Below are positions 2,499 through 31,921 of a stretch of DNA of 35,596 nucleotides, one piece after another (position 1 is the first letter of the stretch; every line of letters starts with the position of its first letter). The stretch comes from Desulfomonilaceae bacterium. Its GTDB lineage: Bacteria > Desulfobacterota > Desulfomonilia > Desulfomonilales > Desulfomonilaceae. Under the pieces are notes generated by a model. It was not told the DNA's origin. It did no database searches and saw nothing but the letters and a program-made list of their open reading frames with translations. A program made the position numbers and the translations under genes. The stretch covers positions 76,762-112,357 of the forward strand of contig JAVHLK010000004.1 in the NCBI GenBank assembly GCA_031082285.1. Direction: 5' to 3'.

Positions 2499-2888
2499 CT
2501 ATCGGTCTTGGATTTTGACAAGATTGAAGGATACGAACTCCAAGTCTTCCATGAACTCCTCACCCAGTTCCAGAGCGGTCTCGTCGTCCTCGTCATAGCG
2601 CCAGTTCACGTGCACCGTGTGTCCGTTGCGCGCGGCCTGTTCCAGAATGTCAAAAAGAACGAGAAAGGCTTTCGAACTGCTGCTGTTCAGATAGATGATA
2701 TCGAGATTTACCTCCGTGGGCGCGGTCTGAGTTGACGCAAAGTATTTCTTGAGCCACTCAAATACCGGAGCGAAAAACTCGGAGGCATTTTCGGGATAAG
2801 ACTTGCCCTTGATTTCCAGAATCCTATTTTCAGCGTCGAAGCATATCCATGGACTGGACTTGGTCGCTTCCACGATGAGATTATCCAT
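2499..2888 (-). CDS. siaC: SiaC-family (DUF1987) partner-switch protein
   Basis: The 129-residue protein matches the SiaC/DUF1987 family. In Pseudomonas aeruginosa, SiaC is phosphorylated by SiaB and dephosphorylated by the PP2C phosphatase SiaA, and its unphosphorylated form activates the diguanylate cyclase SiaD. The family's phosphoacceptor region is visible as YLNSSSSKAFL, residues 66-76, with Ser69 where the Pseudomonas protein has Thr. An amphipathic helix follows (LFDILEQAARNGH), then the strand VNWRYDEDDE. The ATG at 2888 is preceded by GAGGAGG. It is the last gene of the 9017-2499 operon, 214 bases after the phosphatase gene, so it may also have its own promoter. SiaB, phosphatase and cyclase partners in the same operon make the assignment strong. 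Confidence 0.88.
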   Translation of the reverse strand: MDNLIVEATKSSPWICFDAENRILEIKGKSYPENASEFFAPVFEWLKKYFASTQTAPTEVNLDIIYLNSSSSKAFLVLFDILEQAARNGHTVHVNWRYDEDDETALELGEEFMEDLEFVSFNLVKIQDR

Positions 2889-3102
2889 AATGCGGGCCTC
2901 CTCACGTCAGTCGCGCCATGTGTTGAACGGCGCCCCTCCGGCCTGTTGAGAAAATACCTTCCTCCGTCGGCGGATCGGGGGAGTGGTCGAATCAACGAGT
3001 CTCACGCGTGACTTCGGCCATATACCGAGGCACGCAAAGAAACTCTGCACCAAAGACGAGCGTCCCGGTGGGACCTCCTCGCAAATGCCCTGAAAACCTC
3101 GC

Positions 3103-4254
3103 TCACACGACGAATCCTACGACGGTCATGTCATCGAGTTGGACTTCCTTGCCACGATATTCGGCGATCTCTTGTTCCAGGATCGACTTCTGTCGGCTCA
3201 TCGGCTCTTCATGAATCTCCCGGAGCAGCCTCGTGAAGGCACGTCGCCCAAAGGATAATCCTTTCGGGCCTCCGATTTGGTCCGTGATGCCGTCGGTGTT
3301 CATGTAAAACCGCATTGAAGGATCCAGCCGGATCGAATGATTCGTAAACCGGTACTCCGGATCGGATGACCTGTAACCGATGCTCTGTTTGTCTCCCTTC
3401 ATTTCATGAATTTCACCGTGCAGGGAGTAGTACAATCGAATCCCTGCACCGGCGAACGTCAGAAGGCCTTTGGCCTGGTCCACACGGCACAAGCCCAGAT
3501 CCAATCCGTCATTGGATTTTGCTTCGGGACTCTGCTGGTTGAGAGATCTTCGCATTAGATTGTTCAATTCATGCAGAACCAGAGCAGGGTCGTCGTGTCC
3601 CACATCCTGGAGCACGCGGCTCAGTGAAGACCCCGCGATCATGGTCATCATGCCTCCCGGCACGCCGTGGCCCGTGCAATCCATGACGGAGATCAAGAAG
3701 CCGTCATTGAGGGACCGGAAAAAGAAAAGATCTCCGCTCACAATGTCCTTCGGGTTCCAGATGAAGAAGAAATCCCCAAGTTCGGCACCCATTTCTTCCG
3801 TATCGGGAAGAAAGGAAAGCTGTATGGTGCGTGCATACCTCATGCTCGCCATAATCTTTGAGTTGGCTTCCTTCAATGCGTGTTCGGCCCGTTTCTTTTC
3901 TTTCAACGAGTCGATCATGGAATTAAACGCTTCGGAGAACTCCCCCAGGAAATCGACTCGTTGGCTGAGATCCCCTTTGGCAACCTGCTGTGTCTGCCAG
4001 GTAAGGTGCCTCAGGTTGGAGTGCAACTGTTTGTACGGAGAAATCAAGAGATTGCGCGGGGGCACGTGAACGTCAAGGTTGCCCTGTCCGAGTGCGGTTA
4101 CAAAATCATGTGCATCGGCAAATGCCTCGATAAGGGAATTCGTCACCCGACAGAGCTGAGCCATGTCGTCGTCATCGCCTGCCGCGGGGACTATGGGAGA
4201 AGGTACCTCCCCATGGAGCAGACGGTCGAGTGCATCACGGATTTCGCCTATCAT
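3103..4254 (-). CDS. PP2C/SpoIIE-type serine phosphatase, SiaA-like
   Basis: The 383-residue protein has an N-terminal helical region, a HAMP-like segment (about residues 75-120, KGDLSQRVDFLGEFSEAFN) and a C-terminal PP2C/SpoIIE domain. Metal-binding motifs are intact: VSGDLFFF, DCTGHGVPGGMM, NTDGITDQ and LDDMT. It should remove phosphate from Ser or Thr of a regulatory protein, most likely the neighbouring SiaC. Unlike Pseudomonas SiaA, I see no membrane segments or periplasmic sensor, so this version appears cytoplasmic and must take its input from another protein, perhaps the operon's hybrid kinase or V4R protein. It starts at ATG 4254, 24 bases after the V4R gene. Phosphatase activity is well supported; SiaC as substrate is inferred from operon content. 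Confidence 0.9.
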   Translation of the reverse strand: MIGEIRDALDRLLHGEVPSPIVPAAGDDDDMAQLCRVTNSLIEAFADAHDFVTALGQGNLDVHVPPRNLLISPYKQLHSNLRHLTWQTQQVAKGDLSQRVDFLGEFSEAFNSMIDSLKEKKRAEHALKEANSKIMASMRYARTIQLSFLPDTEEMGAELGDFFFIWNPKDIVSGDLFFFRSLNDGFLISVMDCTGHGVPGGMMTMIAGSSLSRVLQDVGHDDPALVLHELNNLMRRSLNQQSPEAKSNDGLDLGLCRVDQAKGLLTFAGAGIRLYYSLHGEIHEMKGDKQSIGYRSSDPEYRFTNHSIRLDPSMRFYMNTDGITDQIGGPKGLSFGRRAFTRLLREIHEEPMSRQKSILEQEIAEYRGKEVQLDDMTVVGFVV

Positions 4255-4278
4255 ACCGGCCTCTGCGCAGTTTCGCAG

Positions 4279-4812
4279 CTATTGAGATTCCTTCAACCGG
4301 GCGGAGAACCTGCACGTCCTGTCGCCGGTAGCCCAGCAATCTATTTCCTTAACGACAAACTGCTTGTTCGTATAGGTCTCGAGTATCCCCTCAATGAAGC
4401 CTTCGTCATACTCGCAAACCGTTTCACCCTTCATAGGAAGTCCCGAGCAGTCCAAGTCTTCCGACACCGTCAGGACGAACTCCATCGTATCAATGTCGGC
4501 CTTTTCGATTCTTAGAATTCCGACGCCCAACGTCTTGAGCTTTTCTTGGAGCGAAGCAATGAATTTCCCGAACTCGAGGTTGGTGTCCAACATGTTCTTG
4601 CAGAATTCCGTGCCGGCAAGCTTGCCCGCCAGTATAAGCACTATTTTTGCTTCTTCGGCGCTATACTTGGCGGCCAAGACGTCTCGCATCGTATACTGCA
4701 TGAGTCGATAGACGGCCACCGAGGTTTGATTCCCGAGGTTCGGTCGTCCTTTCTGTATATCTCCAAGATCTTTCCACTGGAATCGGTACGCGGTACGTTC
4801 GCCTTCAGACAT
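4279..4812 (-). CDS. V4R (4-vinyl reductase) domain sensor protein
   Basis: The start is ATG 4812, chosen because GGAGGAGG lies just upstream; an in-frame ATG at 4833 has no such site. The 177-residue product is a single V4R-type domain. The C-terminal cysteine pattern typical of this fold is present: DLDCSG, ETVCEYDEG, EIDCWATGDRTC. These cysteines usually bind zinc or a small hydrophobic ligand, and V4R domains act as ligand sensors or protein-protein adaptors beside signalling proteins. It sits between the receiver-GGDEF protein and the phosphatase, so it probably feeds a signal into the SiaC switch. Ligand and partner cannot be told from sequence. Confidence 0.82.
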   Translation of the reverse strand: MSEGERTAYRFQWKDLGDIQKGRPNLGNQTSVAVYRLMQYTMRDVLAAKYSAEEAKIVLILAGKLAGTEFCKNMLDTNLEFGKFIASLQEKLKTLGVGILRIEKADIDTMEFVLTVSEDLDCSGLPMKGETVCEYDEGFIEGILETYTNKQFVVKEIDCWATGDRTCRFSARLKESQ

Positions 4813-4944
4813 GACGGTCCTCCTCCGAAACATTGCAGCCCCGCACAGTCACGTGCAAGTACTCGATCGCGGCGCTCGATCGTCCGCCGCGGTCTAAAGT
4901 TACCACTTTCTCGCCTTCAAAAACAGATCCCAAAGCGAATTATC

Positions 4945-5937
4945 TCAGCGGTACGTGTAGCCGCCCGTAGTTCCTTGACGCCGGTCGAGAAACAGGTTAC
5001 TGCCCGGAATCGCTTTGGCCATTTTCTTGGCCTCCGCGCATGCAGAAGCCACTTCAAGGCAATGGTCCCATTTGTTCGGTGCGACATGTACTCCCGCCAT
5101 GCTCAGGGACACCAGGGGGAAACGGTGCTTTCGTCCTTGTCGATCGGTGATGACGATGCCGTTCCGTTCCTTTGCCTCTCCTTCATAGAACGCACCGATT
5201 CCTCCGTCGAATTTCTTGACGATTTCTTCACCCAAAGCCTGAGCCTGGTCGGACTGAACAATGAGCACAAAGTCATCTCCGCCGATGTGACCGAGAAACC
5301 CCTCGGAACGGCACACCGTATCGAGCGCGTTTCTCAGTACCGTCGCGGTGAATTGAATGAGTTGATCGCCTGCAGAAAAGCCGTACCGGTCGTTGTACGC
5401 CTTGAAATTGTCAAGATCGCAATAAATCACTGTGCGGGCGTCGCCCCGTTTGATTGCTTCCTGAATTCTCTTTGCTATGGTGTTGTTTCCCGGAAGCTGT
5501 GTCAAAGGATTCGCGTCAAGGGCAAGCTCCCGGAGACGGTCAAGCTCCACCAACGCTTCATGCAGCCGAACGTGTGTCCGCACCCTGGCAAGGAGCTCCG
5601 CGGGGTTGACCGGTTTGGTGATATAATCTACCCCGCCTGCCTCGAAGCCCTGAAGCACGTCCTGTGTAGTCGTTCGAGCGGTGATGAACAGGACCGGAAT
5701 GTCCGCGGTTCGTGTGTCCTCTTTGAGCCTTCGGCACAAGGCGAATCCGTCCATCTCGGGCATCATGACGTCGAGCAGGAAGATGTCCGGGGTCGTCTCT
5801 TCTACGATCTCCAACGCTTCACGTGCGTTTTCCGCTGCAAGCACTTCATACCCCGCGGCTCCGAGGGTTCGGAGCAGGACTGCGAGGTTATCCGGCATGT
5901 CGTCCACCACGAGCACCGTACGTTGCCGATCGATCAT
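4945..5937 (-). CDS. Response regulator with GGDEF (diguanylate cyclase) output
   Basis: Residues 1-125 are a CheY-like receiver with the acidic pair VVDDMPDN, phosphoacceptor Asp in FLLDVMMPEMDG, FITAR and the conserved Lys in YITKPVNP. Residues about 140-300 are a GGDEF domain with LTQLPGN, YCDLDNFKAYNDRYG and the active-site variant GGDDF (GHIGGDDFVLI), compatible with c-di-GMP synthesis. The inhibitory I-site RxxD is not kept; the four residues there read RSEG. The gene starts by ATGA overlap with the stop of the hybrid kinase gene, so the two are translationally coupled and the kinase is the natural phosphodonor. In a Sia-type operon it takes the place of the cyclase SiaD, but with a receiver domain in front. 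Confidence 0.9.
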   Translation of the reverse strand: MIDRQRTVLVVDDMPDNLAVLLRTLGAAGYEVLAAENAREALEIVEETTPDIFLLDVMMPEMDGFALCRRLKEDTRTADIPVLFITARTTTQDVLQGFEAGGVDYITKPVNPAELLARVRTHVRLHEALVELDRLRELALDANPLTQLPGNNTIAKRIQEAIKRGDARTVIYCDLDNFKAYNDRYGFSAGDQLIQFTATVLRNALDTVCRSEGFLGHIGGDDFVLIVQSDQAQALGEEIVKKFDGGIGAFYEGEAKERNGIVITDRQGRKHRFPLVSLSMAGVHVAPNKWDHCLEVASACAEAKKMAKAIPGSNLFLDRRQGTTGGYTYR

Positions 5938-8411
5938 CCTTCCACCTCCGCGGACTCGATCAGCCTTTCAACGGCGGCCCTCATACCCTGAAGATCCCCT
6001 TGCTTGACCTTCCTTCCAACTTCATTGGCAGCTGCGGCAACGTGATGTCGGCCATGGCTGTTCGCCGCCTCAGCCAGGGTTGCAGCAAGCTCCATGATCT
6101 GTGTGAGGCTTCGTCTCCGGACCGCGGAGGTGAGGTTCCGGACGAGTTCCTCGATCCGACCGGAAGGGTCCCTATCGGTCGGCCTGCCTGCCGACGGAGC
6201 CCGCGAATCCTCGTCGCCTACCGACGCGGCGGGTGTCGTGTCCTCCTCGTCTTGCCCGGGCGATTCTTTGAGCCTGGAAGCCGAATTTTGATCCCGGCAA
6301 TGCTTGGAGACGATTTCTTGTAAGGTCTTGCCACCGATCGGTTTTGTAATGTAGTCGTCCATGCCGGCTTCAAGGCATCGTTCACGATCTCCTTTCATGG
6401 CCGATCCGGTCAACGCAACAATCGGGACGGCAAACCCTTCGGCTCTCAGTGCCCGGGCGGCATCCAATCCGCTCATCTTCGGCAGCCGTATGTCCATGAG
6501 GACCAGATCGAATATGCCGCTTCGTGCCATTTGAACCGCACTGTCACCATCTTCCGCGATATGCGTTTCATGTCCCATCCGGGAAAGCATCAAGCCGGTC
6601 ATTTTTTGACTCACCGGATTGTCCTCGGCAAGCAGAACGCGCAAACCGGCAATCGACGATCTATCACGTGTTCTTCCGGCCGCGCTCCGGGTCTCCGCGT
6701 TGCCACGATGAAGGGCTTTGCGTATCGTGGAGACAAGCACACGTCTGCGAACCGGTTTGACCAAGCGTCCTTCGAACAGGTCCGCCGTGATCTCGCCGGA
6801 TCTTGCGGCAGAAGAGTAGCGACTGAGGGCCACCATAGGGGGGCGAGAGTCGGAATGCTCCTTGAGAACCCTCTCCGCAAATCCCCGCCCGTCCATGATC
6901 GGCATCTGCATCTCTACGATGACCAGGTCAACACTTCGGGAACTCAGAAGATCGAGGCCTTCTTGACCGGTTCCCGTCCACAGGCACTCCATGCCCGTCT
7001 CTCGGACCATGTCTTGCAGAATTCGTGAGGACCTCGCGTCGTCACCCACTATCAACACGGTCTTTCCCTGAAACTCGTCGACGGGGACCGGCTCCTGTTC
7101 AACTAAGCCTTGAGATCCGAGCGTCTTGAGCCATACGTGAAACGCAAACGTGGAGCCCTCACCCAATCGACTGCTCACCGAAATGTCTCCCCCCATGAGC
7201 CGAACCAGACGTCTGCTGATGGCTAGTCCCAGTCCCGTACCGCCTTGCTTGCGGGCACTGGTTCCATCCACCTGAGAAAACAGATCGAACACCGATTCCT
7301 GTGCACTCAGTGGGATGCCGGGACCCGTATCGTGAATGTTCACCTCAATCCGAATCTGCTCGTCCGTCCGGGCGACCGTGCGCGCGGTCGTGAGGATCTC
7401 TCCATGATCGGTGAATTTGATCGCATTGCTCATCAAGTTGGTCAGGACCTGTTGTAGGCGAGTGGGATCGCCCATCACCTGTTGCGGGACGTCCTTGATA
7501 TCGCAGAGTATCTGAACACCTTTCTTTTCGGCCCATGGACGGTGCAGCTCGCTTACCTCGAAGATGAGGTTTTCCAGACTGAAGGGGATGTGGTCAAGTT
7601 CGATCTTGTCCGCTTCTATCTTGGATAAGTCAAGAATATCATTGATGAGGACAAGGAGCGTGTCCCCACAGCGCTTTATTGAGTCAAGGGCATCGCGCTG
7701 CTCATCGGTCAGTTCTTCTTCCAGCAATATTTCCGTAAACCCCGAAATGGCATTCAACGGTGTCCGCATTTCGTGACTCATGGTGGCAAGAAACCTGCTC
7801 TTCGCATGATCGGCCGCTTCCGCCGCTTCCCGGGCCTGCATGAGCTCGGTTACGTCCACAACGGACACAATGCCGCCGACGATTTCTCCGGACGAGCCCT
7901 TCACGGGAGCTGCGTTTCCGAGCGCGCTGACGATCCGACCCTCCTTGCCCATGATGGAACATTCCCTCGAAAAGACCGGTTCGGACGGGCAGCAAGGAAA
8001 AGCCGAGGAGGCGTCTTCCGACGCGGGCATGAACAGATCGGAAAAGGCTTTTCCCACGAGTTCTTGTTTGGAAAAACCCGTCATGGAACACAGAGCGTCG
8101 CTGACTCGGTCGATCACATGGTTGGAATCTACGGTAAATATCCCTGTGGCAGCCGTTGTCAGCAGTTGAGCCTGAAGCCGGTTTGCCCCTCTGAGTTCCT
8201 CGTTCAGACGGTTCAGATCCTTTTGCATCAGATCGCCGATGTTCACAAGACGCCTGGTCTGAACAAGGAGCTTCTTGTAACTACCGAGAAGCTTTTCATA
8301 AGGCAGCGAAGCCACCGCTTCCCGGAACCGACCCGAGGAAAGGTGCTCCATTGCCTCTCGGATTGTCTCTTCTTCTTGTAGAAAAAGAGCGTCACCTCCA
8401 TCGGTCATCAT
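5934..8411 (-). CDS. Hybrid sensor histidine kinase (PAS-HisKA-HATPase-REC-REC)
   Basis: This 825-residue soluble kinase has a PAS domain (about 80-195), HisKA with FLATMSHEMRTPLNA (His213), HATPase_c with the N box (LMSNAIKFT), DTGPGIP and GGTGLGLAISR, then two receivers (about 449-565 and 590-705). The second receiver is canonical (LLAEDN, LMDIRLPKMSG with Asp640). In the first, the phosphoacceptor position is Glu500 (VIVEMQMPIMDG) while the Lys in VKPV is kept, so it probably cannot be phosphorylated and may mimic the phosphorylated state. The helical tail, residues 750-825, is a possible degenerate HPt module without the usual phospho-His motif. There are no membrane segments, so sensing is likely internal. 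It is coupled by ATGA overlap to the receiver-GGDEF gene and lies 54 bases after the SiaB gene. Confidence 0.93.
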   Translation of the reverse strand: MMTDGGDALFLQEEETIREAMEHLSSGRFREAVASLPYEKLLGSYKKLLVQTRRLVNIGDLMQKDLNRLNEELRGANRLQAQLLTTAATGIFTVDSNHVIDRVSDALCSMTGFSKQELVGKAFSDLFMPASEDASSAFPCCPSEPVFSRECSIMGKEGRIVSALGNAAPVKGSSGEIVGGIVSVVDVTELMQAREAAEAADHAKSRFLATMSHEMRTPLNAISGFTEILLEEELTDEQRDALDSIKRCGDTLLVLINDILDLSKIEADKIELDHIPFSLENLIFEVSELHRPWAEKKGVQILCDIKDVPQQVMGDPTRLQQVLTNLMSNAIKFTDHGEILTTARTVARTDEQIRIEVNIHDTGPGIPLSAQESVFDLFSQVDGTSARKQGGTGLGLAISRRLVRLMGGDISVSSRLGEGSTFAFHVWLKTLGSQGLVEQEPVPVDEFQGKTVLIVGDDARSSRILQDMVRETGMECLWTGTGQEGLDLLSSRSVDLVIVEMQMPIMDGRGFAERVLKEHSDSRPPMVALSRYSSAARSGEITADLFEGRLVKPVRRRVLVSTIRKALHRGNAETRSAAGRTRDRSSIAGLRVLLAEDNPVSQKMTGLMLSRMGHETHIAEDGDSAVQMARSGIFDLVLMDIRLPKMSGLDAARALRAEGFAVPIVALTGSAMKGDRERCLEAGMDDYITKPIGGKTLQEIVSKHCRDQNSASRLKESPGQDEEDTTPAASVGDEDSRAPSAGRPTDRDPSGRIEELVRNLTSAVRRRSLTQIMELAATLAEAANSHGRHHVAAAANEVGRKVKQGDLQGMRAAVERLIESAEVEG

Positions 8412-8465
8412 TGGGCCTCCGGTCTATTTTCAGACCTATCAAATTCCGCATTCAGCGTCCCTAAT

Positions 8466-9017
8466 TCAAATGATTGTGGTCAGTGAAAAAAAAGATCTCT
8501 CATCGTTCACCCGCGTGATGTCAAAATCAAGCGGTTCGCTCGCCTTACGGGCCATCTCGATGAACCCCAGTCCCGAGCCTTTCCCCGTACCGACGGATCT
8601 TGCCGTCTTGCGTCGTTCCTTGAAGTGGGCCTTAAGTTGTTGCTTGTCCATGGACTGCAATTCCCGCAACGTCCGACTCAATTCCTCGGACCTTTCATTT
8701 TCAATGTAGTTTCCGCACCGCACGTAAAACCGCCCGTCTTCAATCCCCACGAGGATGATGCCGAAACGGAGTTCCTCGGAATCGTCACTCTCAACTTTGA
8801 TTATTTCGGCAGAGTGACTGACAATGTTTTGCATCTGTTCGACGAAGATCGGAAACACTTTGCCTATGACACTGATTTCGTGACCCTCGATCTCCATTCT
8901 GTGCCATAAGGTCTCCCCTATGCCCTCGACGATACTCTGCGACGCGGATCCGCAGAAACAGAAGATGATCCCCTCTTTGGTCAGATTCTTGTACAGGTCA
9001 AACATATTGAGTTCCAT
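8466..9017 (-). CDS. siaB: SiaB-family protein kinase
   Basis: This 183-residue protein belongs to the SiaB family, the partner-switch kinase that phosphorylates SiaC. Recognisable elements are the N-terminal IIFCFCGSAS, a central FVEQMQNIVSHSAEI helix that plays the N-box role of a GHKL-like fold, and the late glycine-rich GTGKGSGLGFIEMARK (about residues 142-157), followed by the FFSLTTII strand. It is the first gene of the operon. GGAGG lies 10 bases before ATG 9017. With SiaC and the PP2C phosphatase downstream, the complete kinase, phosphatase and substrate triad is present in one operon. Confidence 0.87.
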   Translation of the reverse strand: MELNMFDLYKNLTKEGIIFCFCGSASQSIVEGIGETLWHRMEIEGHEISVIGKVFPIFVEQMQNIVSHSAEIIKVESDDSEELRFGIILVGIEDGRFYVRCGNYIENERSEELSRTLRELQSMDKQQLKAHFKERRKTARSVGTGKGSGLGFIEMARKASEPLDFDITRVNDERSFFSLTTII

Positions 9018-11743: not shown

Positions 11744-12037
11744 GTGAAAAACCCGTGTAATGCGGAAAGTGTGAGAAACTCGATTCGAAAAGGGTGGAGG
11801 TCTCTCAAGGACTTCTTGTACGGGTTCTTCCTTTACGGCATGGTTCAGGAGGTGGAAGGCAGAAGGCGGCAACGCGAAAGCGCTTTTTTCCTGTTGGTGA
11901 TGGGGGATCTGGTAGGCTTGCCGATTTTCCCTTGTTACTACAGATTTCGCCTTCTGCCCTACTGTATCGCTAAGCTTGGACCGTGGAAACGGAACACGCT
12001 CAGGCCCAAGGACCTATTCAGCAACGTGTCGGACTAG
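11744..12037 (+). CDS. Small protein, paralogue 1, of the CstA-ArsA cluster
   Basis: This is a 97-residue protein of unknown function. It starts at GTG 11744, chosen for the GGGAGCTCCGGAG region upstream. One hydrophobic stretch (about residues 46-62, AFFLLVMGDLVGLPIF) could be a membrane helix or hairpin. It is clearly paralogous to the next gene: both share an early F-x-YG-x-H/x-GM region, then MGDxxGxPIxPxYYxxRLLP, then WKRxxLRxKD. The two genes are 6 bases apart and are followed by two ArsA-like ATPases. I know no named family for it. A role as membrane partner or client of the ATPases is inference from gene order. Confidence 0.8.
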   Translation: MKNPCNAESVRNSIRKGWRSLKDFLYGFFLYGMVQEVEGRRRQRESAFFLLVMGDLVGLPIFPCYYRFRLLPYCIAKLGPWKRNTLRPKDLFSNVSD

Positions 12038-12043
12038 AGGTTT

Positions 12044-12328
12044 ATGATGACCGAGAAGAAACAAAAGAAGAAGAAGAGAGGCGGAATTGTCGGCTTCTTT
12101 CAAGACTTCACGTACGGTATGGCCACCCATGGAATGGCGCGTCACGCGGTGAAGACCCGTTCCAGCATGGAGCATCTCTTCATACTGATTACCATGGGCG
12201 ACATGCTCGGAGTACCGATTCTTCCGCCGTACTACTCTCTGAGGCTTCTCCCCCATGTGGTTCCCCAGATAACGACCTGGAAGCGGAGAATGTTGCGGGA
12301 AAAGGACTTCGTGGATTCACTCTACTAA
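12044..12328 (+). CDS. Small protein, paralogue 2, of the CstA-ArsA cluster
   Basis: This is a 94-residue protein. It starts at ATG 12044 after AGAGG; a second ATG follows directly. The N-terminus is very basic (KKQKKKKRGG), then comes YGMATHGMARH and one hydrophobic stretch, HLFILITMGDMLGVPILP (about 46-63), followed by PYYSLRLLPHVVP and WKRRMLREKDF. It shares the MGDxxGxPIxPxYYxxRLLP core and WKRxxLRxKD tail with the preceding protein, so the pair arose by duplication. The basic N-terminus suggests it stays inside the cell with the hydrophobic part in the membrane. The function is unknown. Its tight linkage to two ArsA-like ATPases suggests the two pairs work together. Confidence 0.85.
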   Translation: MMTEKKQKKKKRGGIVGFFQDFTYGMATHGMARHAVKTRSSMEHLFILITMGDMLGVPILPPYYSLRLLPHVVPQITTWKRRMLREKDFVDSLY

Positions 12329-12397
12329 TCGGGGGCTCGCAAACCCTATCCATCTCGACCGGGCATGCCCCGGTCCATCGTAAGGAGGATCCCCGCC

Positions 12398-13381
12398 ATG
12401 GGACTGGCAGAGCGTCTGCTCGGGTCACCGGAGAAACAGTTCATCATGTACGGCGGCAAAGGAGGGCTTGGGAAGACTACGTTCTCAGCCGCCACCGCCT
12501 ATTATCTGGCCAACAAGGGGAAGCGCGTGCTCGTGTTCTCCGTCGATCCCCAGGCATCGCTGAGCGATATATTCGAGCGGGACATTTTTGGCCAAGGCAA
12601 CGTCGAAATAGCACCGAATCTCTTTGCATGCGAGGTGGATGCCGATCGGAGAATAGCCGAGTACCAGCAAGAGATCCGTCAAAAAATCATGGACATGTAC
12701 GGGATGGCTAAGGTCCCGGATGAAATTGAGAGCTACATTGCGGCGTCTTCCGCGGAACCCGCAATGGAGGAGAGCGCAATATTCGATGCAGTGGTCGACA
12801 TCGTAGTGGAAGGCGGCTTTGATTACTACATCTACGATCTCGTGCCGTTGGGACATGCGCTCTACTACCTGAGCATGGGATCGATATATGACGCGTGGCT
12901 GAATAAGATCACCGGACTCAGGGAGCAAATGCGGGAATACGACGAGGTCATCGCCACCATGCAAAGCGATGATGAAATCTCCGAGGACAAGATCTATGAA
13001 GAGCTCGTGTACATCAAGAACCGGATCGGAACTGCATCACAGATCATGACCGATCCTCAAAGGACTTCCTTTTATTTCGTTCTCACACCTGAGGAGATGA
13101 TCATCAATGACACGCGGAAGGCTGCCGATCTCTTCGGCAAATTCGGCGTCCCCATGTCCGGCTACATTGTGAACCGGGTCATTCCGGTGGAAGAGCTTAC
13201 GGGCGACCTGCCGTCTTATCTCCGGAATCGGGTCGAAATGCAGGTGGGATGCCTTGACAACATAAGGAAGATCTTCGGCAAGGACGTATTGGGCTATGTC
13301 CCCGAATTCGACAACGAAGTCAAGGGAATGGACGCGATCAGGCGTATGGCGGAAACTATGTTCGGGGAGAAGCTGACATGA
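12398..13381 (+). CDS. ArsA/Get3-like ATPase, paralogue 1
   Basis: The start is ATG 12398, eight bases after TAAGGAGGA; an ATG at 12365 in frame lacks a site. The 327-residue product is a deviant-Walker P-loop ATPase of the ArsA/Get3 (TRC40) group. The P-loop GGKGGLGKTTFS (residues 19-30) has the signature Lys21. Switch I reads SVDPQASLSD with Asp50 kept, the residue equivalent to Get3 Asp57. The Switch II motif, DTAPTGH in the family, is altered to DLVPLGH (147-153). There is no CxxC zinc motif, so dimerisation differs from eukaryotic Get3. The gene overlaps the next one by ATGA, so both ATPases should be made together, probably as a heterodimer. Client proteins are unknown. Anion export is possible but no ArsB or ArsD is nearby. 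Confidence 0.88.
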   Translation: MGLAERLLGSPEKQFIMYGGKGGLGKTTFSAATAYYLANKGKRVLVFSVDPQASLSDIFERDIFGQGNVEIAPNLFACEVDADRRIAEYQQEIRQKIMDMYGMAKVPDEIESYIAASSAEPAMEESAIFDAVVDIVVEGGFDYYIYDLVPLGHALYYLSMGSIYDAWLNKITGLREQMREYDEVIATMQSDDEISEDKIYEELVYIKNRIGTASQIMTDPQRTSFYFVLTPEEMIINDTRKAADLFGKFGVPMSGYIVNRVIPVEELTGDLPSYLRNRVEMQVGCLDNIRKIFGKDVLGYVPEFDNEVKGMDAIRRMAETMFGEKLT

Positions 13382-14361
13382 ATACCAACATGCAGGACTT
13401 TTTAGAGACTCGACCCACTCTCCGGTACGTTTATTTCGGAGGCAAAGGAGGGGTCGGCAAGACGGTAATGGCCGGAGCCACGGCACTCTGGTTTGCTCAA
13501 CAAGGCAAGAAAACGCTCCTGGCATCCACTAACCCCGTGCACAGCCTTTCCAATCTACTGGACCAGAACGTGTTCGGTAAGGCAACGGAAGTCGATCAGG
13601 GCTACGGCCTTTATGCACTTGAAATCGACACTCGAGAGACAATCGAACGGTCCAAAACCGAAATCCGGGAGAAAGTCAACTGGTTCTTGAAATTTGCCGA
13701 CATCCCGACCAAGGCTGAGGATTTCGTCGAGTCCGCCACCATGAACCCGGCTTTCGAGGAATCGGCCATGTTCGAGAACATGATCGACCTCATCATGGAC
13801 GACAAGTACGAGGTCTATGTATTCGACACGGCTCCCACGGCAAATGCTCGCAGGCTTCTCGGCATGTCGCAGGTCTACGGTCTCTGGGTGGACAAGATGC
13901 TCCAGAGTCGCAAAGAAGCCCGAGACACGAGAATCAGTCTCTCTTTTCGTAAGAAAAAGGAGGAAGAGCAGGAAGACCCGCTCTTGACATACCTGTCATC
14001 CTTTCGCGATCGAATCGAGCGCATGAGGGTACTGCTTACCGACGATTCCAAGACCGCCTTTTTCTTCGTCACGTTGCTGGAATCGCTACCCATCGCGGTC
14101 ATCAAACGGTTTATCGGCTGGTTCCACGATTTCGGGATTCCCATCGGCGGAGTCGTCGTCAACCAGGTCATCGACGACTCACAGCTTGATGAAAATACCA
14201 CTCAGTTCGTTTTGAACAGAGTTCAGATGCAGAAGAAGTATCTTGAGGAAGCCCAACAGAGTTTTGAGCGAATTCTCGGAATGGTCCCCCTTATGGAGAA
14301 GGAAGTCAGGGGAGTCCCCATGATTGCCAGGGTCGCGTCAAACCTCTTTCCCGGCATTTGA
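13378..14361 (+). CDS. ArsA/Get3-like ATPase, paralogue 2 (Switch I Asp to Asn)
   Basis: This 327-residue protein is the same length as its upstream paralogue and is translationally coupled to it (ATGA overlap). The P-loop GGKGGVGKTVMAG is intact with signature Lys23. Switch I reads STNPVHSLSN: Asn52 (codon AAC, 13531-13533) replaces the family Asp, the position whose Asn mutant in yeast Get3 is the known hydrolysis-deficient form. Switch II is closer to canonical than in the partner (DTAPTANARR, 150-159). A charged insert (RKKKEEEQEDP, about 195) and a conserved C-terminal VQMQKKYLEEAQQSF helix, which resembles the Get3 region KMQKKYLDQ, are visible. Probably a slow or silent ATPase subunit that pairs with paralogue 1. 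Confidence 0.88.
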   Translation: MNTNMQDFLETRPTLRYVYFGGKGGVGKTVMAGATALWFAQQGKKTLLASTNPVHSLSNLLDQNVFGKATEVDQGYGLYALEIDTRETIERSKTEIREKVNWFLKFADIPTKAEDFVESATMNPAFEESAMFENMIDLIMDDKYEVYVFDTAPTANARRLLGMSQVYGLWVDKMLQSRKEARDTRISLSFRKKKEEEQEDPLLTYLSSFRDRIERMRVLLTDDSKTAFFFVTLLESLPIAVIKRFIGWFHDFGIPIGGVVVNQVIDDSQLDENTTQFVLNRVQMQKKYLEEAQQSFERILGMVPLMEKEVRGVPMIARVASNLFPGI

Positions 14362-21557: not shown

Positions 21558-23846
21558 TCACGCCTTTTCAATCCTTACGCGGACGGCTCCCTTGAGGGGC
21601 GCCATGTCCGCGGGGTTGACTCCTGCCCCTCGGGTGACGTCGGGCTCGGTGGTAACTCCATTCACTGTATGCGGCGCAACCCCGGATTCGCGGTATCCGA
21701 ACCCCCTCGCCAACGCGACCACGCCCGGTCGTATGCCGGGCACGAGCTGGGCGGTGCACGTAAGACGGGTCTTGCCGTCCAGGGACGTCACCGTCACCTT
21801 GTCTCCCCGGCCGATACCGTGCCTGCGTGCATCGCCGACGTTGACGAGCAGCGGGTTTTCGGGAAGCACCTCCAGCAACCACTGATTAAGACCGGAATCC
21901 GGGGATCTGTGAAACGGAAGGGTGTACGCCATGAGAATGAGCGCGTCTTCGGGAGCAGCCTCATGAGCCGAATAGACCGCAAAGCTCCCTTCTGGCAAAC
22001 GGAAGGCCTCACTTGGAGCGGTCTTGACCGCGCGCCGCGCCTTTGGTTCTCCGAAGAAACCGCCTCGCGCAAGGGCTCGGGCGACATCCTTCTCTGAATC
22101 GGACACGGGGAATCCGGCCTGACGCATTGCTCCCAAGACCGCGGGAACGGCCTTTTCATAGTATCCCCATGCGTTTCTCATTCCGTTGGGGGACTCCTCG
22201 CCGAAGCCGGGTATCTTCAGCGCGGACGCGGTCTCGATGAGTATCTCCTCCATGGGCTTCGTGTCGGGGAGAATGGGAAAATAGCGACCGGTTTTTCGGT
22301 CGAACCCGCCGACGGCCGGACTTCTCAATCCGATCCCGGGGGGCGTTGTCGAGGCCGGCAATTCACAGATGTCCCATCGCTCCAGATACGTGGTGTCCGG
22401 CAGGATATAATCGGCCAACGCCGCGGTTTCGGTAATCTCCGTCGATATGGCGATCAACAGCGGGACGCCGGTTCGGTCTTTCAAGTACGGCACGGCTTGA
22501 TAAGAAGCATCGTACACGGGATCGGTTCGCCAAATAATCAGGGCCTTGGCTGCATCGTCCAAGCCTTTCGGGCTCCAGTCCATGCTCAAGTCTATGGGAA
22601 GTCGTTTTTCGGCCTGCTCGAGAAACTCGTCATTTCTTGCCGTCAATCCTCCGGACCCGGGCGCGGATCCCACGATCCGATTGAGGCTGAAGATTGCCGT
22701 CGCAGCCTCCAGGCCGTTCGGTTGCGACAGAATCCCTCTCCCGGCGATGACCGCCGATCTCTCTGCCTCTTGCGCGAGCATGCCGGCCAACCTCAGCGGA
22801 ATGTCCGACGAGATCCCGCACGGCTCAATGAGACCTTCCACCGTTCGGCCGGCGATCAGGGACTCCACGGCATTCCGAGGAACTCGTAACGCTTCGGCAT
22901 GATTGTCCAGAAGGGCCTTCATGATTGCAAGCGCCAGGTTGATGTCCGTTCCGGGAACCACCGGGACCCAAAGATCGGACTTGGATGCCGACGTTGAAAG
23001 CCTTGGGTCCACCACGGCCCATCGCAGGCGGCCCGAGATTCGTGCATCGCTGATTTGCCGTGCAAGGGATACCAAAGGGGTACCCGAATCCAGTGGCGCG
23101 TCCCCAAAGCTCAACAGCAGTCTCACCCGAGCGTAATCGGTGTCCACGATTCCCGTACCCCGTCCGAAAACCGTTTCTGCAGCCATGACGCCGATTTGAT
23201 CGGTGAGGTGGGCTTTGTCCCGGGCGAGGGACGCACCGGGAAATGCAGACAAGAACATCCTGATCGCGTTGAGCGATCCCCAGTCCGCGGCGCCTGCCAG
23301 AAAGCTCAGACGTTCGCCGGAGTCTTTGATGCTCTCGAGCCCATCGACATGTCCTTCACCGAAGAGATTCCCGCCCTTGGTAATTTCTCCCAGAGCCTCG
23401 CTCCAGGTGACGGCCTTCCACTTCCTCGAGCCGCGGGGGCCTACTCTCTTGAGCGGTTTGGCAACTCTGAAAGGATTGTACAGGGTCTGAATACCGCTCC
23501 CACCCACTGCACACACCGATGCCCCGACCGCGGCCGCGTCCTCCAAGGGGGTGGAAAAAGGCAGAGGGGACCGGACCGAAACAGGATTGAACGGACTTCC
23601 GCCGATCTTGACGACCGACCCTTGGGCCACCCGACAGCAAATGCCGCAATTCCCCGGGCACAGGGCGCAGACCGTGTAGACATTGTCGATACCGGGGAGG
23701 GTCTCGATGGGGTCGACCCCGGGAGCCCCCTTGATGTACTCCGGCACCGGGCCTGATTCATGAAACAGGGTGCACCCCGCGAAGAGGGATACACCTCCCA
23801 TCAGGGCCGCGGTACGGATAAATTCTCTTCGGGTAACGTCGGTCAT
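21558..23846 (-). CDS. Tat-exported molybdopterin-oxidoreductase-family subunit, no Mo-ligand Cys
   Basis: The 762-residue protein begins with a Tat signal (TRREFIRTAALMGG) that also has a lipobox-like LFAGC (Cys25). The N-terminal [4Fe-4S] motif is CALCPGNC with Cys60, 63, 67 and the fourth Cys112. MopB-domain segments (LSFGDAPLD, WAVVDPRLS, VPVVPGTDINLALA) and a C-terminal MopD-type barrel (VNVGDARRHGIGRGDKVTV) follow. No Cys occurs between residue 112 and about 345, so the usual Cys ligand to Mo is absent and no obvious substitute is seen. Silent MopB subunits of this kind occur in Qrc and alternative complex III. With the FeS and NrfD genes upstream it forms a CISM-type complex on the periplasmic face. 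It is the last gene of the cluster. Confidence 0.88.
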   Translation of the reverse strand: MTDVTRREFIRTAALMGGVSLFAGCTLFHESGPVPEYIKGAPGVDPIETLPGIDNVYTVCALCPGNCGICCRVAQGSVVKIGGSPFNPVSVRSPLPFSTPLEDAAAVGASVCAVGGSGIQTLYNPFRVAKPLKRVGPRGSRKWKAVTWSEALGEITKGGNLFGEGHVDGLESIKDSGERLSFLAGAADWGSLNAIRMFLSAFPGASLARDKAHLTDQIGVMAAETVFGRGTGIVDTDYARVRLLLSFGDAPLDSGTPLVSLARQISDARISGRLRWAVVDPRLSTSASKSDLWVPVVPGTDINLALAIMKALLDNHAEALRVPRNAVESLIAGRTVEGLIEPCGISSDIPLRLAGMLAQEAERSAVIAGRGILSQPNGLEAATAIFSLNRIVGSAPGSGGLTARNDEFLEQAEKRLPIDLSMDWSPKGLDDAAKALIIWRTDPVYDASYQAVPYLKDRTGVPLLIAISTEITETAALADYILPDTTYLERWDICELPASTTPPGIGLRSPAVGGFDRKTGRYFPILPDTKPMEEILIETASALKIPGFGEESPNGMRNAWGYYEKAVPAVLGAMRQAGFPVSDSEKDVARALARGGFFGEPKARRAVKTAPSEAFRLPEGSFAVYSAHEAAPEDALILMAYTLPFHRSPDSGLNQWLLEVLPENPLLVNVGDARRHGIGRGDKVTVTSLDGKTRLTCTAQLVPGIRPGVVALARGFGYRESGVAPHTVNGVTTEPDVTRGAGVNPADMAPLKGAVRVRIEKA

Positions 23847-23867
23847 ATGTTTCCCAGCTTCGGTTTC

Positions 23868-24758
23868 TCAGCTCAGTGGTATGTCGAAACCAATATAGAC
23901 AACGGAGTACCGCATGAGGAAAACCCCGCAGATGATCAGCAACGATGCGACATACAGCCAGGCCCGTCGTTGTTTTGTCCACGGCGACACCAAGAGAGCC
24001 AGCGGCACGAGCATGCCGCACAGAATCTCGCCGTAGACGTAGAGCTTTTCATGCAATGCGAACCATATGGACGCAATGCCGTCCGCGGTGGAAACCATGA
24101 GAGTGAGCCAGAAGCAGCCGTTCCAGAACAAGTCCGTGAGGAGAATTCCCACCATCATGAGCCGCAGGCTCCTGAAGAGTTCAGGGTCGAGCTTTTCCTT
24201 ACGGTACCGGTCCATGATGAGCGCGACGACCAGGAGAAGCGCGATTCCCGACAACAGGGCCGAGGTAAGGAAGAAGCCGGGCATAAGCGCGGAATGCCAC
24301 CAGGCCCGCGCTCGTACCAGAGCAAAAGCAAAACCGGTATAGGCATGGACGAATATGGCCAACGGCACGGTGATCATGCCCAGTATTCGGGTGATTCGGT
24401 CATTCTTGACGAAGATGTAATAGATGTAGATCAGGTTGGCTATGGGATACGCCGTGAGCAGCCAGGAACCATAGGAGAGGGCCGACGTCCTGTTGAAGTA
24501 CTCCGGCACGAGCGTGTGCCAGAATCGAAGCGGTTGATGCAGGTCGAGAATCAGGCAAGCCGGCGCCAACAGCAGCAGCAGAAACGATATGATGGCCGCG
24601 GGCAGGGCCATGGGCTTGAAGCGTTTGATGCCGAAGACCGTGGAGAGAGTTGACAGGATGAACGACCCCGCGGAGAGGCCGGTAAAATAGAAATACAGAG
24701 GAATGTAGACCTTCCAGGGGATTTCGTGAGGCACGTTGTAGAGCACGGAAGCTTCCAT
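23868..24758 (-). CDS. NrfD/PsrC-type membrane quinone-interacting subunit
   Basis: This 296-residue integral membrane protein has eight predicted helices and belongs to the NrfD/PsrC family. Landmarks are the first helix YFYFTGLSAGSFI, ACLILDLHQPLRFWH after the second helix and YTGFAFA later, which together form the quinone or quinol pocket in family members. It carries electrons between the membrane quinone pool and the Fe-S subunit; no heme is expected. The gene starts immediately after the stop of the FeS-subunit gene and is followed after 21 bases by the MopB gene, so the three genes form one complex. Confidence 0.92.
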   Translation of the reverse strand: MEASVLYNVPHEIPWKVYIPLYFYFTGLSAGSFILSTLSTVFGIKRFKPMALPAAIISFLLLLLAPACLILDLHQPLRFWHTLVPEYFNRTSALSYGSWLLTAYPIANLIYIYYIFVKNDRITRILGMITVPLAIFVHAYTGFAFALVRARAWWHSALMPGFFLTSALLSGIALLLVVALIMDRYRKEKLDPELFRSLRLMMVGILLTDLFWNGCFWLTLMVSTADGIASIWFALHEKLYVYGEILCGMLVPLALLVSPWTKQRRAWLYVASLLIICGVFLMRYSVVYIGFDIPLS

Positions 24759-25451
24759 TTATCGGCCTTTTTTCCAGTACGATGCGTCGGGACTCGGAAT
24801 ATGCCTATGATAGTCGAGTATGGCTTCCTTGAAGTCGTCGGAATACTGTATTCGACCTTTGAGCGAATGATCCGCTTCCACGTAGAAGACCTTCGGCCGC
24901 GTTCCCAGCTCGGGCTTTAGTACGGTGGTCCCCACTGAGGCCAGCTCCCGGCGTATCTCCGATGCGGGATCGTCAAGGTCTCCGAAGACAAGTGCGCCGG
25001 TTATGCAGACATCCACGCATGCCGGCTTAAGCCCCGAATCTATGCGTGCCACGCAGAAATCGCATTTATCCGCGGTACTCCGAATCGGGTTGAAGAAACG
25101 TGCGTCGTACGGACACGCTGCGATACACATTCCGCAGCCGATGCACTTGCCGTAGTACATGATCACTATTCCGTCCTCTTCTCGTCGGACCGTGGCCTGC
25201 ACCGGACAGACCTGCACGCAGGGAGCAACATCGCACTGGTTGCAGAGCCGACGAAGAAAGAAGTTGCCCGCGTTGGGGAAAGCCCCTTTTTGAAGCCCTT
25301 TTACCCATGACCGCCAGTATCCGAGCGGGACGTTGTTCTCACTCTTGCAGGCAATAGTGCAGCTGTGGCACCCGATGCAGCGTCGCTGATCGACGAGCAT
25401 TCCCCACCTTTTTGGAGCGGGTTTCTCCGAAGAAGGCTTAGGGTCTTTCAC
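24759..25451 (-). CDS. Four-cluster [4Fe-4S] electron-transfer subunit (PsrB/NrfC/DmsB type)
   Basis: The 230-residue protein has the classic four-cluster ferredoxin pattern: CIGCHSCTIAC, CNQCDVAPCVQVCP, CIGCGMCIAACP and CDFCVARIDSGLKPACVDVC. It passes electrons between the NrfD-type subunit and a catalytic or cytochrome partner. It has no signal peptide; exported family members usually travel with a Tat-bearing partner, here the MopB protein, so a periplasmic location is possible but not shown. It is immediately followed by the NrfD gene and preceded, 86 bases upstream, by the triheme cytochrome gene. Confidence 0.93.
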   Translation of the reverse strand: MKDPKPSSEKPAPKRWGMLVDQRRCIGCHSCTIACKSENNVPLGYWRSWVKGLQKGAFPNAGNFFLRRLCNQCDVAPCVQVCPVQATVRREEDGIVIMYYGKCIGCGMCIAACPYDARFFNPIRSTADKCDFCVARIDSGLKPACVDVCITGALVFGDLDDPASEIRRELASVGTTVLKPELGTRPKVFYVEADHSLKGRIQYSDDFKEAILDYHRHIPSPDASYWKKGR

Positions 25452-25536
25452 GAAATGAACCTTTCATTGTTCGCGGTGCTTATCCATGGACGGAGGCGGA
25501 GCCCGGGAACGAGATATCTGTTCGCTCAGTCCAGAG

Positions 25537-26076
25537 TTACTTGGCCTTGTGACACTCCAGACAACTCATTCGGCTGAACGATTCCTTGCCGTCATGACAG
25601 GTGCCGGTCGCACAGGCGGCACATGCCCTCGGGACCTCATACGTGACGAGTGCGGCCTCGTCCTCTTGAAGACTCCCGTGTACGTACAGAGTCGACGTCT
25701 CGATGCCGATTCGCACCTTCTTGGCGGGCGAATCACGCAACGCGCGCAGCACGTAGGTTCCATAGGTCTGTGTTGCAAAGATCCTGTCATGACAGGTCTT
25801 GCAGTCTTTGTATTTTCCGTCGTCAAACCACATGTGCGTATAGTGACGGAACACCACGGGGCCTGGAGATCCTTTGGCCTCGTACGTGATGCTCCCGCCT
25901 CCGAAGACTCCGGAAAACCCAAGGAAAGCGAACAGGACCCCGGTGCCTACAAGAACCGTCAGAATGATGCCCCATGCTGCGGCCTGTACGCGCCAGTACG
26001 GCGCAGGATCCCGCAGACTGACAATATAGTCCTTGACTGGGGCACGCATTCCGGCCTTTTTGGTGTGCAGAGTCAT
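25537..26076 (-). CDS. Membrane-anchored triheme cytochrome c (c7/c3-like)
   Basis: The start is ATG 26076, preceded by GGAGAAG; it overlaps the end of the flavoprotein gene. The 179-residue product has one N-terminal membrane helix (about residues 35-58, WGIILTVLVGTGVLFAFLG) and a periplasmic domain with three c-heme sites: CKTCH (92-96), an expanded CATGTCH (Cys155-Cys160-His161, CX4CH) and CLECH (172-176). VVFRHYTHMWF supplies distal histidines, as in class III cytochromes. CX4CH is typical of tetraheme c3 relatives in sulfate reducers. It plays the cytochrome role that QrcA has in Qrc, linking the complex to soluble periplasmic cytochromes or accepting electrons from the seven-heme protein. 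Confidence 0.85.
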   Translation of the reverse strand: MTLHTKKAGMRAPVKDYIVSLRDPAPYWRVQAAAWGIILTVLVGTGVLFAFLGFSGVFGGGSITYEAKGSPGPVVFRHYTHMWFDDGKYKDCKTCHDRIFATQTYGTYVLRALRDSPAKKVRIGIETSTLYVHGSLQEDEAALVTYEVPRACAACATGTCHDGKESFSRMSCLECHKAK

Positions 26077-26111
26077 TCTTCTCCAACGGTGTCCGGGCAG
26101 GGAGTTCCGGG

Positions 26112-27791
26112 CTACCTCAAGGTACCCACGTACGTGGTGGTCCATTGCCTCTTGCGGACTTCCGGGTTGCCATAGTCGGGCAGTACCATGGGCGAGACCC
26201 GATCGGTGTCGATTCCCGCCTCTTCCAACTCCTTGTGATATTTCCTGACGTGATCGACCGAGAGTTTTCCCACGTCGCCTCTCTCTCGGGCAAACTTACC
26301 GGCACTTTCTCCCGCAAGCCTGCCGAACACGGTAATATCCAGAAGCGAATTGCCCATGAGCCTGTTTGCTCCGTGCACTCCGCCGCCTACCTCGCCCGCC
26401 GCATAGAAGCCGGGCACTACAGTGGAACCGTCGGACTCGTAGGCGAGTCCCCCGTTCTGATAGTGCAACGTGGGGTAAATAAGCATGGGCACCTTTGAGA
26501 TATCGATCTCGTATCGCTTGAACAGGATGTACTTGGCCGGGAACTCTCTCTCAACGGTTCCTTCACCCTCGAGCAGGTCTATCATGGGCGAGTCCAGCCA
26601 GACCCCGAACTTCCCGGGCTGTCCCGGCACCGGGACTCCTTTGCCTACCTTGGTACACTCGCGAATGATGCTCGCTGATTCGATGTCCCGCGGCTCGCGC
26701 TCGAACACGAATTGCTCGCCGTCTATGTTTACGAGGTTTGCCCCCGCGCCGCGGACCTTCTCCGTGATCAGCAATCCCTCCGCCTGCTCCGGAAATACCG
26801 CACCGGTGGGGTGGTACTGCGTGGCATGGAGGAAACGAACCCCCACACCCAATCGGTACCCCATGACAAGGCCGTCCCCCGTCGCTCCATAGTGATTGGT
26901 GGTCATGAATTTCTGAACATGAAGTCTGCCCGAACCGCCCGTTGCCATCACGACGGCCTTGGCCTTCACCAGGAAATATTCTTCCGTTTCCAGGTTGTAG
27001 AGAACCGCGCCGGAGCACATGCCGTTGTCGTCCATCAGCAATTCCACCGCGGGAGAAAACTCCAACACGCCGATGTCTTTGATTCGGTTACGTGTTTCAT
27101 CTCTCAGGGTTCTCATGATTTCAGCGCCGGTCATGTCCCCTGCATAGTGCATCCGTTTACGGCAGGTTCCGGCTCCGTGCAATGTGAAAAGCTTTCCATC
27201 AGGCCGTTTGTTGAACATGCACCCGAGCTGTTCGAGCCAGCCGATGGCCTTGGGTGCTTCGGTGACCATGGTTTTGACCAGTTCGGGATCGTTTTCGAAA
27301 TGACCTCCGCCCATGACGTCCAGGTAATGGTAATAGGGAGAATCCTTCCATCCCTTGGTAGCGGCTTGCATTCCGCCTTCGGCCATCATGGTGTTTGCGT
27401 CGCCGTGACGGAGTTTGGTTGCGATGATCACCTTGGCCCCCAGCTCCTGGGCGATCAAGGCCGCCGCGGTGCCTGCTCCGCCGCCGCCGATGACCAGAAC
27501 ATCCGTCTCATAGTGGACTTCTTCGAGATGGATCGAGTCGGGGTCCACTCGGCTCCTGGACTCGAATGCATCGGCAAACTCCTGCGCCAGGGCATAACCC
27601 TTGCTCGGGCCGACTCTCAATTCTCTGAGGGCATCGGGTCGAAAATCCGGATGGTACTTCTCAAGCCTGTCCCTCCGTTCGTCCAGCGTGAGGGCTTGAA
27701 ATTCAATCCCGGCCTTTTTCCTCTCCACTCTCGCGGGTCTTGTCTTGTCTACCTTCTTGATAAGTTCCATCAAGTCTGGGGTGTATCCCAT
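26112..27791 (-). CDS. SdhA/FrdA-like FAD flavoprotein
   Basis: The start is ATG 27791 with GGAGGC upstream; 559 residues. The FAD-binding GGGGAGTAAA (102-111) comes after an unusual N-terminal extension of about 90 residues. Fumarate reductase/succinate dehydrogenase landmarks follow: MAEGGMQAA, HYAGDMTGAEIMRTL, TQYHPTG, LLITEKVRGAGANLVN (Arg347 in the catalytic position), HYQNGGL and the C-terminal VHGANRLMGNSLLD. The FAD-linking His of SdhA is Asn133 here (ANTMMAEGG), so FAD is probably bound non-covalently. No signal peptide is present, so it is cytoplasmic. It follows the Fe-S subunit gene. Fumarate reduction or succinate oxidation is the first guess, but related flavoproteins reduce other unsaturated acids. 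Confidence 0.9.
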   Translation of the reverse strand: MGYTPDLMELIKKVDKTRPARVERKKAGIEFQALTLDERRDRLEKYHPDFRPDALRELRVGPSKGYALAQEFADAFESRSRVDPDSIHLEEVHYETDVLVIGGGGAGTAAALIAQELGAKVIIATKLRHGDANTMMAEGGMQAATKGWKDSPYYHYLDVMGGGHFENDPELVKTMVTEAPKAIGWLEQLGCMFNKRPDGKLFTLHGAGTCRKRMHYAGDMTGAEIMRTLRDETRNRIKDIGVLEFSPAVELLMDDNGMCSGAVLYNLETEEYFLVKAKAVVMATGGSGRLHVQKFMTTNHYGATGDGLVMGYRLGVGVRFLHATQYHPTGAVFPEQAEGLLITEKVRGAGANLVNIDGEQFVFEREPRDIESASIIRECTKVGKGVPVPGQPGKFGVWLDSPMIDLLEGEGTVEREFPAKYILFKRYEIDISKVPMLIYPTLHYQNGGLAYESDGSTVVPGFYAAGEVGGGVHGANRLMGNSLLDITVFGRLAGESAGKFARERGDVGKLSVDHVRKYHKELEEAGIDTDRVSPMVLPDYGNPEVRKRQWTTTYVGTLR

Positions 27792-27849
27792 AACTGCCTC
27801 CGGTCTTGCGGAAATCAGCGTGTCTTTCCGGTTTGTGCAGAGGTTTCCT

Positions 27850-28632: not shown

Positions 28633-28679
28633 GATCTGAAATCCTTTCTTGGTCCGTGATCACGATGGTTTCTCCAGAG

Positions 28680-31895: not shown

Positions 31896-31921
31896 AATCG
31901 TGATGTCCCGTACCGTTCGAC

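Follow-up and report, generated by a model that had tools for sequence, protein, structure and literature searches.

The window, a stretch of 35,596 nucleotides from a Desulfomonilaceae bacterium, contains a six-gene operon on the minus strand (9017-2499) in which the genes run head to tail. Domains were assigned with Pfam and NCBIfam. In order of transcription the operon encodes SiaB, a hybrid histidine kinase, a REC-GGDEF protein, a V4R protein, a HAMP-PP2C phosphatase and SiaC. The first gene, siaB (8466-9017), encodes a 183-residue member of the Ser/Thr switch kinase family (DUF6272, 134.5 bits; NCBIfam SiaB_fam_kinase, 179.8 bits against a cut-off of 85). The second (5934-8411) encodes the 825-residue hybrid histidine kinase, whose Pfam domains PAS-HisKA-HATPase-REC-REC are preceded by an N-terminal stalk and followed by an Hpt-like tail lacking the His. 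The stop codon of the kinase gene lies inside the start of the gene for the 330-residue REC-GGDEF response regulator (4945-5937; Pfam), forming a 4-bp ATGA overlap. Such an overlap between genes usually means coupled translation. The remaining genes encode a V4R sensor protein of 184 residues (4279-4833; 60.1 bits, cut-off 31), a soluble HAMP-PP2C (SpoIIE) phosphatase of 383 residues (3103-4254; SpoIIE, 72.1 bits) and SiaC, of 129 residues (2499-2888; PF09345, 153.9 bits, cut-off 24.5). The source genome has this single siaC. Its downstream neighbor, a cyclopropane-fatty-acid synthase-like gene on the plus strand (1292-2404), is convergent. A scan for promoters and terminators within the operon gave no credible one, the matches being at chance level. 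No membrane segment was found in any of the six proteins (highest 19-residue Kyte-Doolittle mean, 1.31), all of which look soluble from their sequences.

These assignments bear out the gene content given in a preliminary description of this DNA. The SiaB kinase, PP2C phosphatase, SiaC and GGDEF protein do occur together, as six ORFs with the expected domains. The phosphatase was said to lack a membrane sensor, and its hydropathy gives no membrane segment. The cyclase was said to carry a receiver domain, and Pfam finds a REC with the phospho-acceptor position, Asp56, present. The hybrid histidine kinase and V4R genes, described as additions to the Sia set, were both confirmed by domain search. 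Three details needed correction: the first REC of the kinase is degenerate (Glu500), the kinase tail resembles an Hpt that lacks the His, and the cyclase has a GGDDF motif and no I-site.

Glu60 and Asn64 of SiaB are kept in all 76 aligned SiaB sequences, Glu60 being the assumed counterpart of the predicted catalytic Glu61 of Pseudomonas aeruginosa SiaB. Ser69 of SiaC, the predicted phosphorylation site, aligns with P. aeruginosa Thr68 and lies in an NSS triplet flanked by N68 and S70. SiaC also keeps the SiaD-facing surface residues Y31, Y66, D80, L108, E111 and D115, with two changes from the P. aeruginosa surface, R103 to Thr and I71 to Ser. The metal-binding motifs of the phosphatase (SGDLF, DCTGHG, TDGITD and DDMTVV) are intact. 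A SiaC with Ser69, a SiaB-family kinase with its Glu and a PP2C with its metal motifs would together make up a SiaABC-type partner switch. The NCBIfam equivalog cut-offs are missed by all three proteins (SiaA, 251 versus 700; SiaB, 125 versus 225; SiaC, 121 versus 150), and the operon is thus a Sia-type system rather than a SiaABCD orthologue. Nor does it encode a GGDEF protein with a stalk, which would correspond to SiaD; the stalk sits on the kinase and the REC-GGDEF protein has none.

The V4R protein has cysteines at C140, C166 and C174, with the spacing of 26 and 8 seen in the DmpR zinc site, and E163 between them. The Glu precedes the second Cys by 3 residues in this protein and by 5 in the published DmpR numbering. 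C129, C140, E163, C166 and C174 are kept in nine of nine aligned V4R proteins. The Cys-Glu-Cys-Cys set of the zinc-type V4R domains (DmpR/MopR) is therefore present in sequence, as a predicted metal site. The AlphaFold model is weak (51.5); a fold search placed V4R, MopR, PoxR, DmpR and TRAPP near the top, which lends some support. Going by the modeled fold, aromatic compounds might be guessed as ligands.

Seven of the 18 family genomes, among them the source genome, encode homologues of the V4R protein, at 54-68% identity. In these the next gene, or in one case the V4R gene itself, encodes an N-terminus like residues 1-170 of the phosphatase. In a phylum-wide sample the HAMP module is found in the neighboring same-strand gene at 23 of 30 V4R loci, including the operon, where it is linked to a histidine kinase, GGDEF or PP2C domain or to no recognized domain. 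V4R with a HAMP-PP2C recurs at two loci (L020 and L022). Because the V4R gene adjoins a HAMP module at so many loci, the V4R-HAMP pair looks like an exchangeable soluble receptor. Direct support comes from a natural fusion of V4R to the HAMP module in a 472-residue protein (L115:1018-2436). Given these recurrences, the V4R protein is more likely an input to the phosphatase HAMP domain than a sensor placed at the cyclase.

SiaC of P. aeruginosa binds two repeats along the SiaD stalk helix, and S82, D83 and Q86 of SiaD touch the T68 region of SiaC. The two docking motifs in the PDB sequence of SiaD, RLERIARISDGFQSMAREQ and RLEKVARISDRYQQMMRDL, follow the pattern VxxISDxxQ on the stalk helix. Only one counterpart is present among the six operon proteins, RRLVNIGDLMQKDLNRL, at residues 53-69 of the hybrid histidine kinase. 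It lies within a predicted SiaC-docking stalk (residues 37-87; 8151-8303, minus strand) recognized by motif and HMM. Its core, LVNIGDLMQKDL (residues 55-66; 8214-8249, minus strand), matches the SiaD motif and fits the stalk core found near siaC, [VIL]xx[IVM][SG]DxxQxxL, the SiaD contact residues appearing as I-G-D-x-x-Q. A stalk HMM matches the kinase with E=4.9e-17. An HMM trained solely on GGDEF-effector stalks (21 stalks, all of ORFs assigned to the GGDEF class) matches it with E=2.8e-14 and also matches at least 10 other histidine kinases, a PP2C and class III cyclases. The likeness to SiaD emerges only through the motif or a family HMM; phmmer with the kinase N-terminus alone against the PDB set did not retrieve SiaD. 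Three points count against docking. Two SiaD contact residues are lost in the kinase (R80 to Asn57 and R84 to Leu61), SiaC has Thr for R103, and three genes separate the kinase gene from siaC. Taken together, the sequence evidence makes it quite probable that the kinase is the direct partner of SiaC.

The kinase has His213 in HisKA and, besides Glu500 in the phospho-Asp position of the first REC, Asp640 in the second. Its C-terminal 90 or so residues were considered as an Hpt domain and rejected, since the Pfam match is not significant (E=0.08) and the His is absent.

Proteins of the SiaC family (DUF1987) occur widely among bacteria. The association of the stalk with siaC was examined in 92 sequences: the window, 11 regions of related genomes and a further 80 loci that a siaC-alignment scan of the GTDB collection yielded. 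The pattern [VILMFA]xx[IVLMF][SAGCT]DxxQxx[LMI] matched 45 of the 173 non-shadow ORFs that lie on the siaC strand no more than 1 kb from the gene, against 12 of 993 others (Fisher p=4e-29); with shuffled proteins there were 5.1 matches in 1,345. With the stalk HMM, which was partly trained on these loci, the counts were 57 of 173 and 13 of 993.

The stalk was also searched genome-wide using an alignment, A2, from which the operon kinase was left out, in 297 genomes of the phylum that were searched for siaC as well. It was found in five genomes (G000, G102, G042, G098 and G254), each of which has siaC, and the 291 siaC-negative genomes gave no match. The sixth siaC-positive genome (G036) has a siaC match of only 24 bits and no stalk match. 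By our own calculation, which ignores relatedness, random placement would give this pattern with a chance of about 3e-10. A2 holds stalks from three of the five positive genomes, which has no bearing on the lack of matches elsewhere. In the source genome the single stalk match is the operon kinase. Twenty siaC-positive genomes of other groups have 39 siaC genes and 28 stalk matches, and a comparison of coordinates places 26 of the 28 within about 3.5 kb of a siaC. In siaC-positive genomes, stalk proteins far from any siaC (G318:C110:238171, G327:C73:11513 and G098:C1:2729721) are possible remote SiaC effectors.

At the level of loci, a stalk protein is encoded in the operon at 61 of 91 siaC loci, a few duplicate contigs among them. 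At the other 30 no recognizable stalk neighbor is present; either the association has exceptions or the effector is encoded elsewhere, and SiaC may have other docking modes. When coevolution with the stalk S/G was compared, SiaC position 68 was Ser in nearly all SiaC-stalk pairs. The siaC contig of a Desulfomonile MAG of the same family (G307:C584, 3,346 bp) is apparently the same as locus L024.

Across the 91 loci the stalk appears to mark the neighboring effector whatever its catalytic domain, be it GGDEF, histidine kinase, class III cyclase, HD or PP2C. GGDEF proteins are the commonest recognized stalk effectors (25 of 65), followed by 14 histidine kinases, the operon kinase included, and one PP2C. 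Pfam searches on a sample of the others identified class III nucleotide cyclases, HD_5 hydrolases, a HisKA_2 kinase and a HATPase-CheX protein. At L021/L024, from a relative, a stalk-PAS-HisKA-HATPase-REC-REC kinase with the layout of the operon kinase is encoded directly after siaC. In L035 and L040 (Gallionellaceae) siaB, siaC and a stalk kinase gene are followed directly by a gene for a REC-HD-GYP regulator. A Desulfobacterales locus (L047) has the same arrangement with an extra siaB after siaC. The motifs of these regulators are HHExxDGxGYP or HHExxNGxGYP. A kinase followed by a REC c-di-GMP enzyme thus recurs with the opposite enzymatic sign.

Other stalk proteins have less familiar architectures. 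One locus (L049:5991-8984) encodes a 997-residue stalk-HisKA-HATPase-REC-REC-Hpt-SiaB fusion, with a histidine kinase and a switch kinase on one polypeptide, followed by siaC and then a stalk-GGDEF gene. Stalk proteins of 716-719 residues are encoded after siaC at seven loci (L034, L055, L060, L075, L087, L088 and L089) from Campylobacterales, Gammaproteobacteria and others, and in most of them two single-REC proteins come next. These proteins, of which the one from L034 has HATPase and CheX domains, may represent another type of SiaC effector. Class III adenylate/guanylate cyclases with a stalk adjoin siaC at L038, L084, L070 and L053, and the L053 protein carries a GGDEF domain as well.

The REC-GGDEF protein of the operon has GGDDF at residues 219-223, which does not fit the cyclase motif [G/A/S]G[D/E]E[F/Y], and lacks the RxxD of the I-site. 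Its base-selecting position has the canonical guanine-selecting Asp. The Ser of YGFSAGD was considered as the selectivity residue and rejected, the position nine residues after PleD N335 being Asp. The single-sequence AlphaFold model has a pLDDT of 36.5. GGDDF enzymes are mostly untested. One, GSU1937, is active as a cGAMP synthase and another, PA3258, was reported to be without effect; cyclase activity of the operon protein is uncertain from its sequence.

At E<=1e-45 matches to the REC-GGDEF protein occur in 44 of 297 phylum genomes, counting the source genome, and among the six siaC-positive phylum genomes the source genome is the only one on this list. The relatives share 33-42% identity, in most cases along almost the entire protein; all that were aligned have GGDDF and the stalk is absent. 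In the 17 other family genomes no relative was found at E<=1e-40. From these sequences the REC-GGDEF protein looks like a recruited response regulator. The REC-GGDDF family (operon 4945-5937 and L120-L130) lacks the I-site, has a divergent C-terminal half and is widespread in the phylum; no published work on it was found.

A signaling chain can be proposed from these features. The cytoplasmic V4R protein would bind a small molecule and act on the N-terminal HAMP module of the PP2C. The phosphatase would remove, and SiaB would add, a phosphate on Ser69 of SiaC. Unphosphorylated SiaC would then bind the coiled coil of the kinase stalk and reset the kinase, much as it acts on SiaD in P. aeruginosa, from which this polarity is taken by analogy. 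The kinase would in turn phosphorylate, or stop phosphorylating, Asp56 of the co-translated REC-GGDEF protein and change the cyclic-dinucleotide output. We infer the binding and phosphotransfer steps, the sign of the effect and the cyclase activity, and regard the chain as a whole, from V4R through HAMP-PP2C and SiaC (opposed by SiaB) to the stalk kinase and the REC-GGDEF protein, as reasonably probable. The route of phosphotransfer from the kinase to the REC-GGDEF protein is uncertain, given the degenerate first REC and the lack of an intact Hpt.

The preliminary description had Ser/Thr partner switching and a His-Asp phosphorelay meeting at the cyclase, with SiaC binding the cyclase. The joining of the two is plausible. 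Their convergence, in which SiaC would bind the REC-GGDEF protein directly while the kinase phosphorylates it, has precedent in the activation of a GGDEF enzyme by SiaC in P. aeruginosa and in the predominance of GGDEF among recognized stalk effectors. Yet with filters off and a threshold as loose as E<=10 the stalk HMMs give no match in the REC-GGDEF protein, the relatives of this protein are response regulators from genomes mostly without siaC, and the one stalk of the source genome is on the kinase. Binding of SiaC to the cyclase is thus probably wrong and convergence quite improbable. A partner switch and a phosphorelay in series are more likely, because the operon kinase bears the stalk and because L021/L024 encodes a kinase of this architecture immediately downstream of siaC. 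The suggested survey for the same six-gene order did not find the exact order elsewhere; its half-modules do recur, V4R with HAMP-PP2C at the two loci given above and siaC with a stalk kinase (14 effector proteins, 91 loci).

Alternatively the operon could hold two circuits, one in which SiaB, the PP2C and SiaC control the kinase, and a REC-GGDEF protein that either takes its input chiefly from a different kinase or serves as a non-catalytic GGDDF receptor. The lack of close REC-GGDEF relatives in the other 17 family genomes, a kinase without an intact Hpt, the GGDDF motif and the missing I-site are all in keeping with such a split. The 4-bp overlap of the two genes argues against it, as do the three loci (L035, L040 and L047) where a stalk kinase likewise directly precedes a REC c-di-GMP regulator, and we consider two circuits unlikely. 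The nature of the product is a separate matter. A deltaproteobacterial lineage and the GGDDF motif shared with the cGAMP synthase GSU1937 would suit a Hypr GGDEF enzyme making 3',3'-cGAMP. However, at the position of PleD Asp344 and GacA Ser348 (N335+9), where a Hypr enzyme would have Ser or Thr, the operon protein and its homologues have Asp, and a search of the source genome, run without a positive control, did not find a GEMM-I riboswitch; a Hypr enzyme is very improbable indeed. The preferred reading remains the serial chain that ends at the REC-GGDEF protein.

The operon shares with SiaABCD of P. aeruginosa the PP2C/SiaB/SiaC switch, the NSS/NTS phosphorylation site, the effector stalk motif and a c-di-GMP-type output. 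It differs in that the stalk effector is a hybrid histidine kinase with one stalk motif, versus two in SiaD, and the cyclase is a separate REC protein. Its phosphatase is soluble with a V4R partner, whereas SiaABCD has a membrane sensor. The HptB-HsbR-HsbA-HsbD system of P. aeruginosa likewise combines a phosphorelay, a PP2C/kinase partner switch and a diguanylate cyclase. There the phosphorelay protein HptB controls the phosphatase HsbR; in the operon the order is predicted to be reversed, the partner switch controlling the histidine kinase. HsbA, moreover, is a STAS protein and not of the SiaC family. REC-GGDEF regulators of the PleD/WspR type have the same REC with a phospho-Asp and GGDEF output, but the operon protein has GGDDF, has lost the I-site, is divergent in the C-terminal half of its GGDEF domain and shares its operon with a SiaC switch. 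The V4R fold and zinc-site cysteine spacing are those of DmpR, MopR and PoxR, in which V4R is a domain of a sigma-54 activator; the operon V4R stands alone beside HAMP-bearing enzymes.

In the open-access papers retrieved, SiaD is the sole effector shown to be under SiaC control, and neither SiaC control of a histidine kinase nor a general stalk docking motif was found there. DUF1987 proteins have been proposed to modulate adjacent proteins (eLife 2021), and the stalk motif makes this proposal testable with single point mutations. We lean slightly toward the view that SiaC proteins are general plug-in controllers, acting through a portable stalk on diguanylate cyclases, histidine kinases, class III cyclases, HD hydrolases and PP2Cs, and that in this operon a switch driven by a portable V4R-HAMP receptor commands a histidine kinase, the reverse of HptB-HsbR-HsbA. 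Were the stalk to prove a general docking element, sequence could reveal the partners of many SiaC proteins, and Ser/Thr partner switches would directly command histidine kinases and other signaling enzymes.

Elsewhere in the window, translations indicate two further gene groups. On the plus strand (11744-14361) two small similar ORFs are followed by two tandem ArsA/Get3-like ATPase genes. On the minus strand (21558-33851) a respiratory cluster encodes a molybdopterin oxidoreductase, an NrfD-like membrane protein, 4Fe-4S proteins, a fumarate-reductase-like flavoprotein, FMN-binding proteins and haem-motif (CxxCH) proteins.
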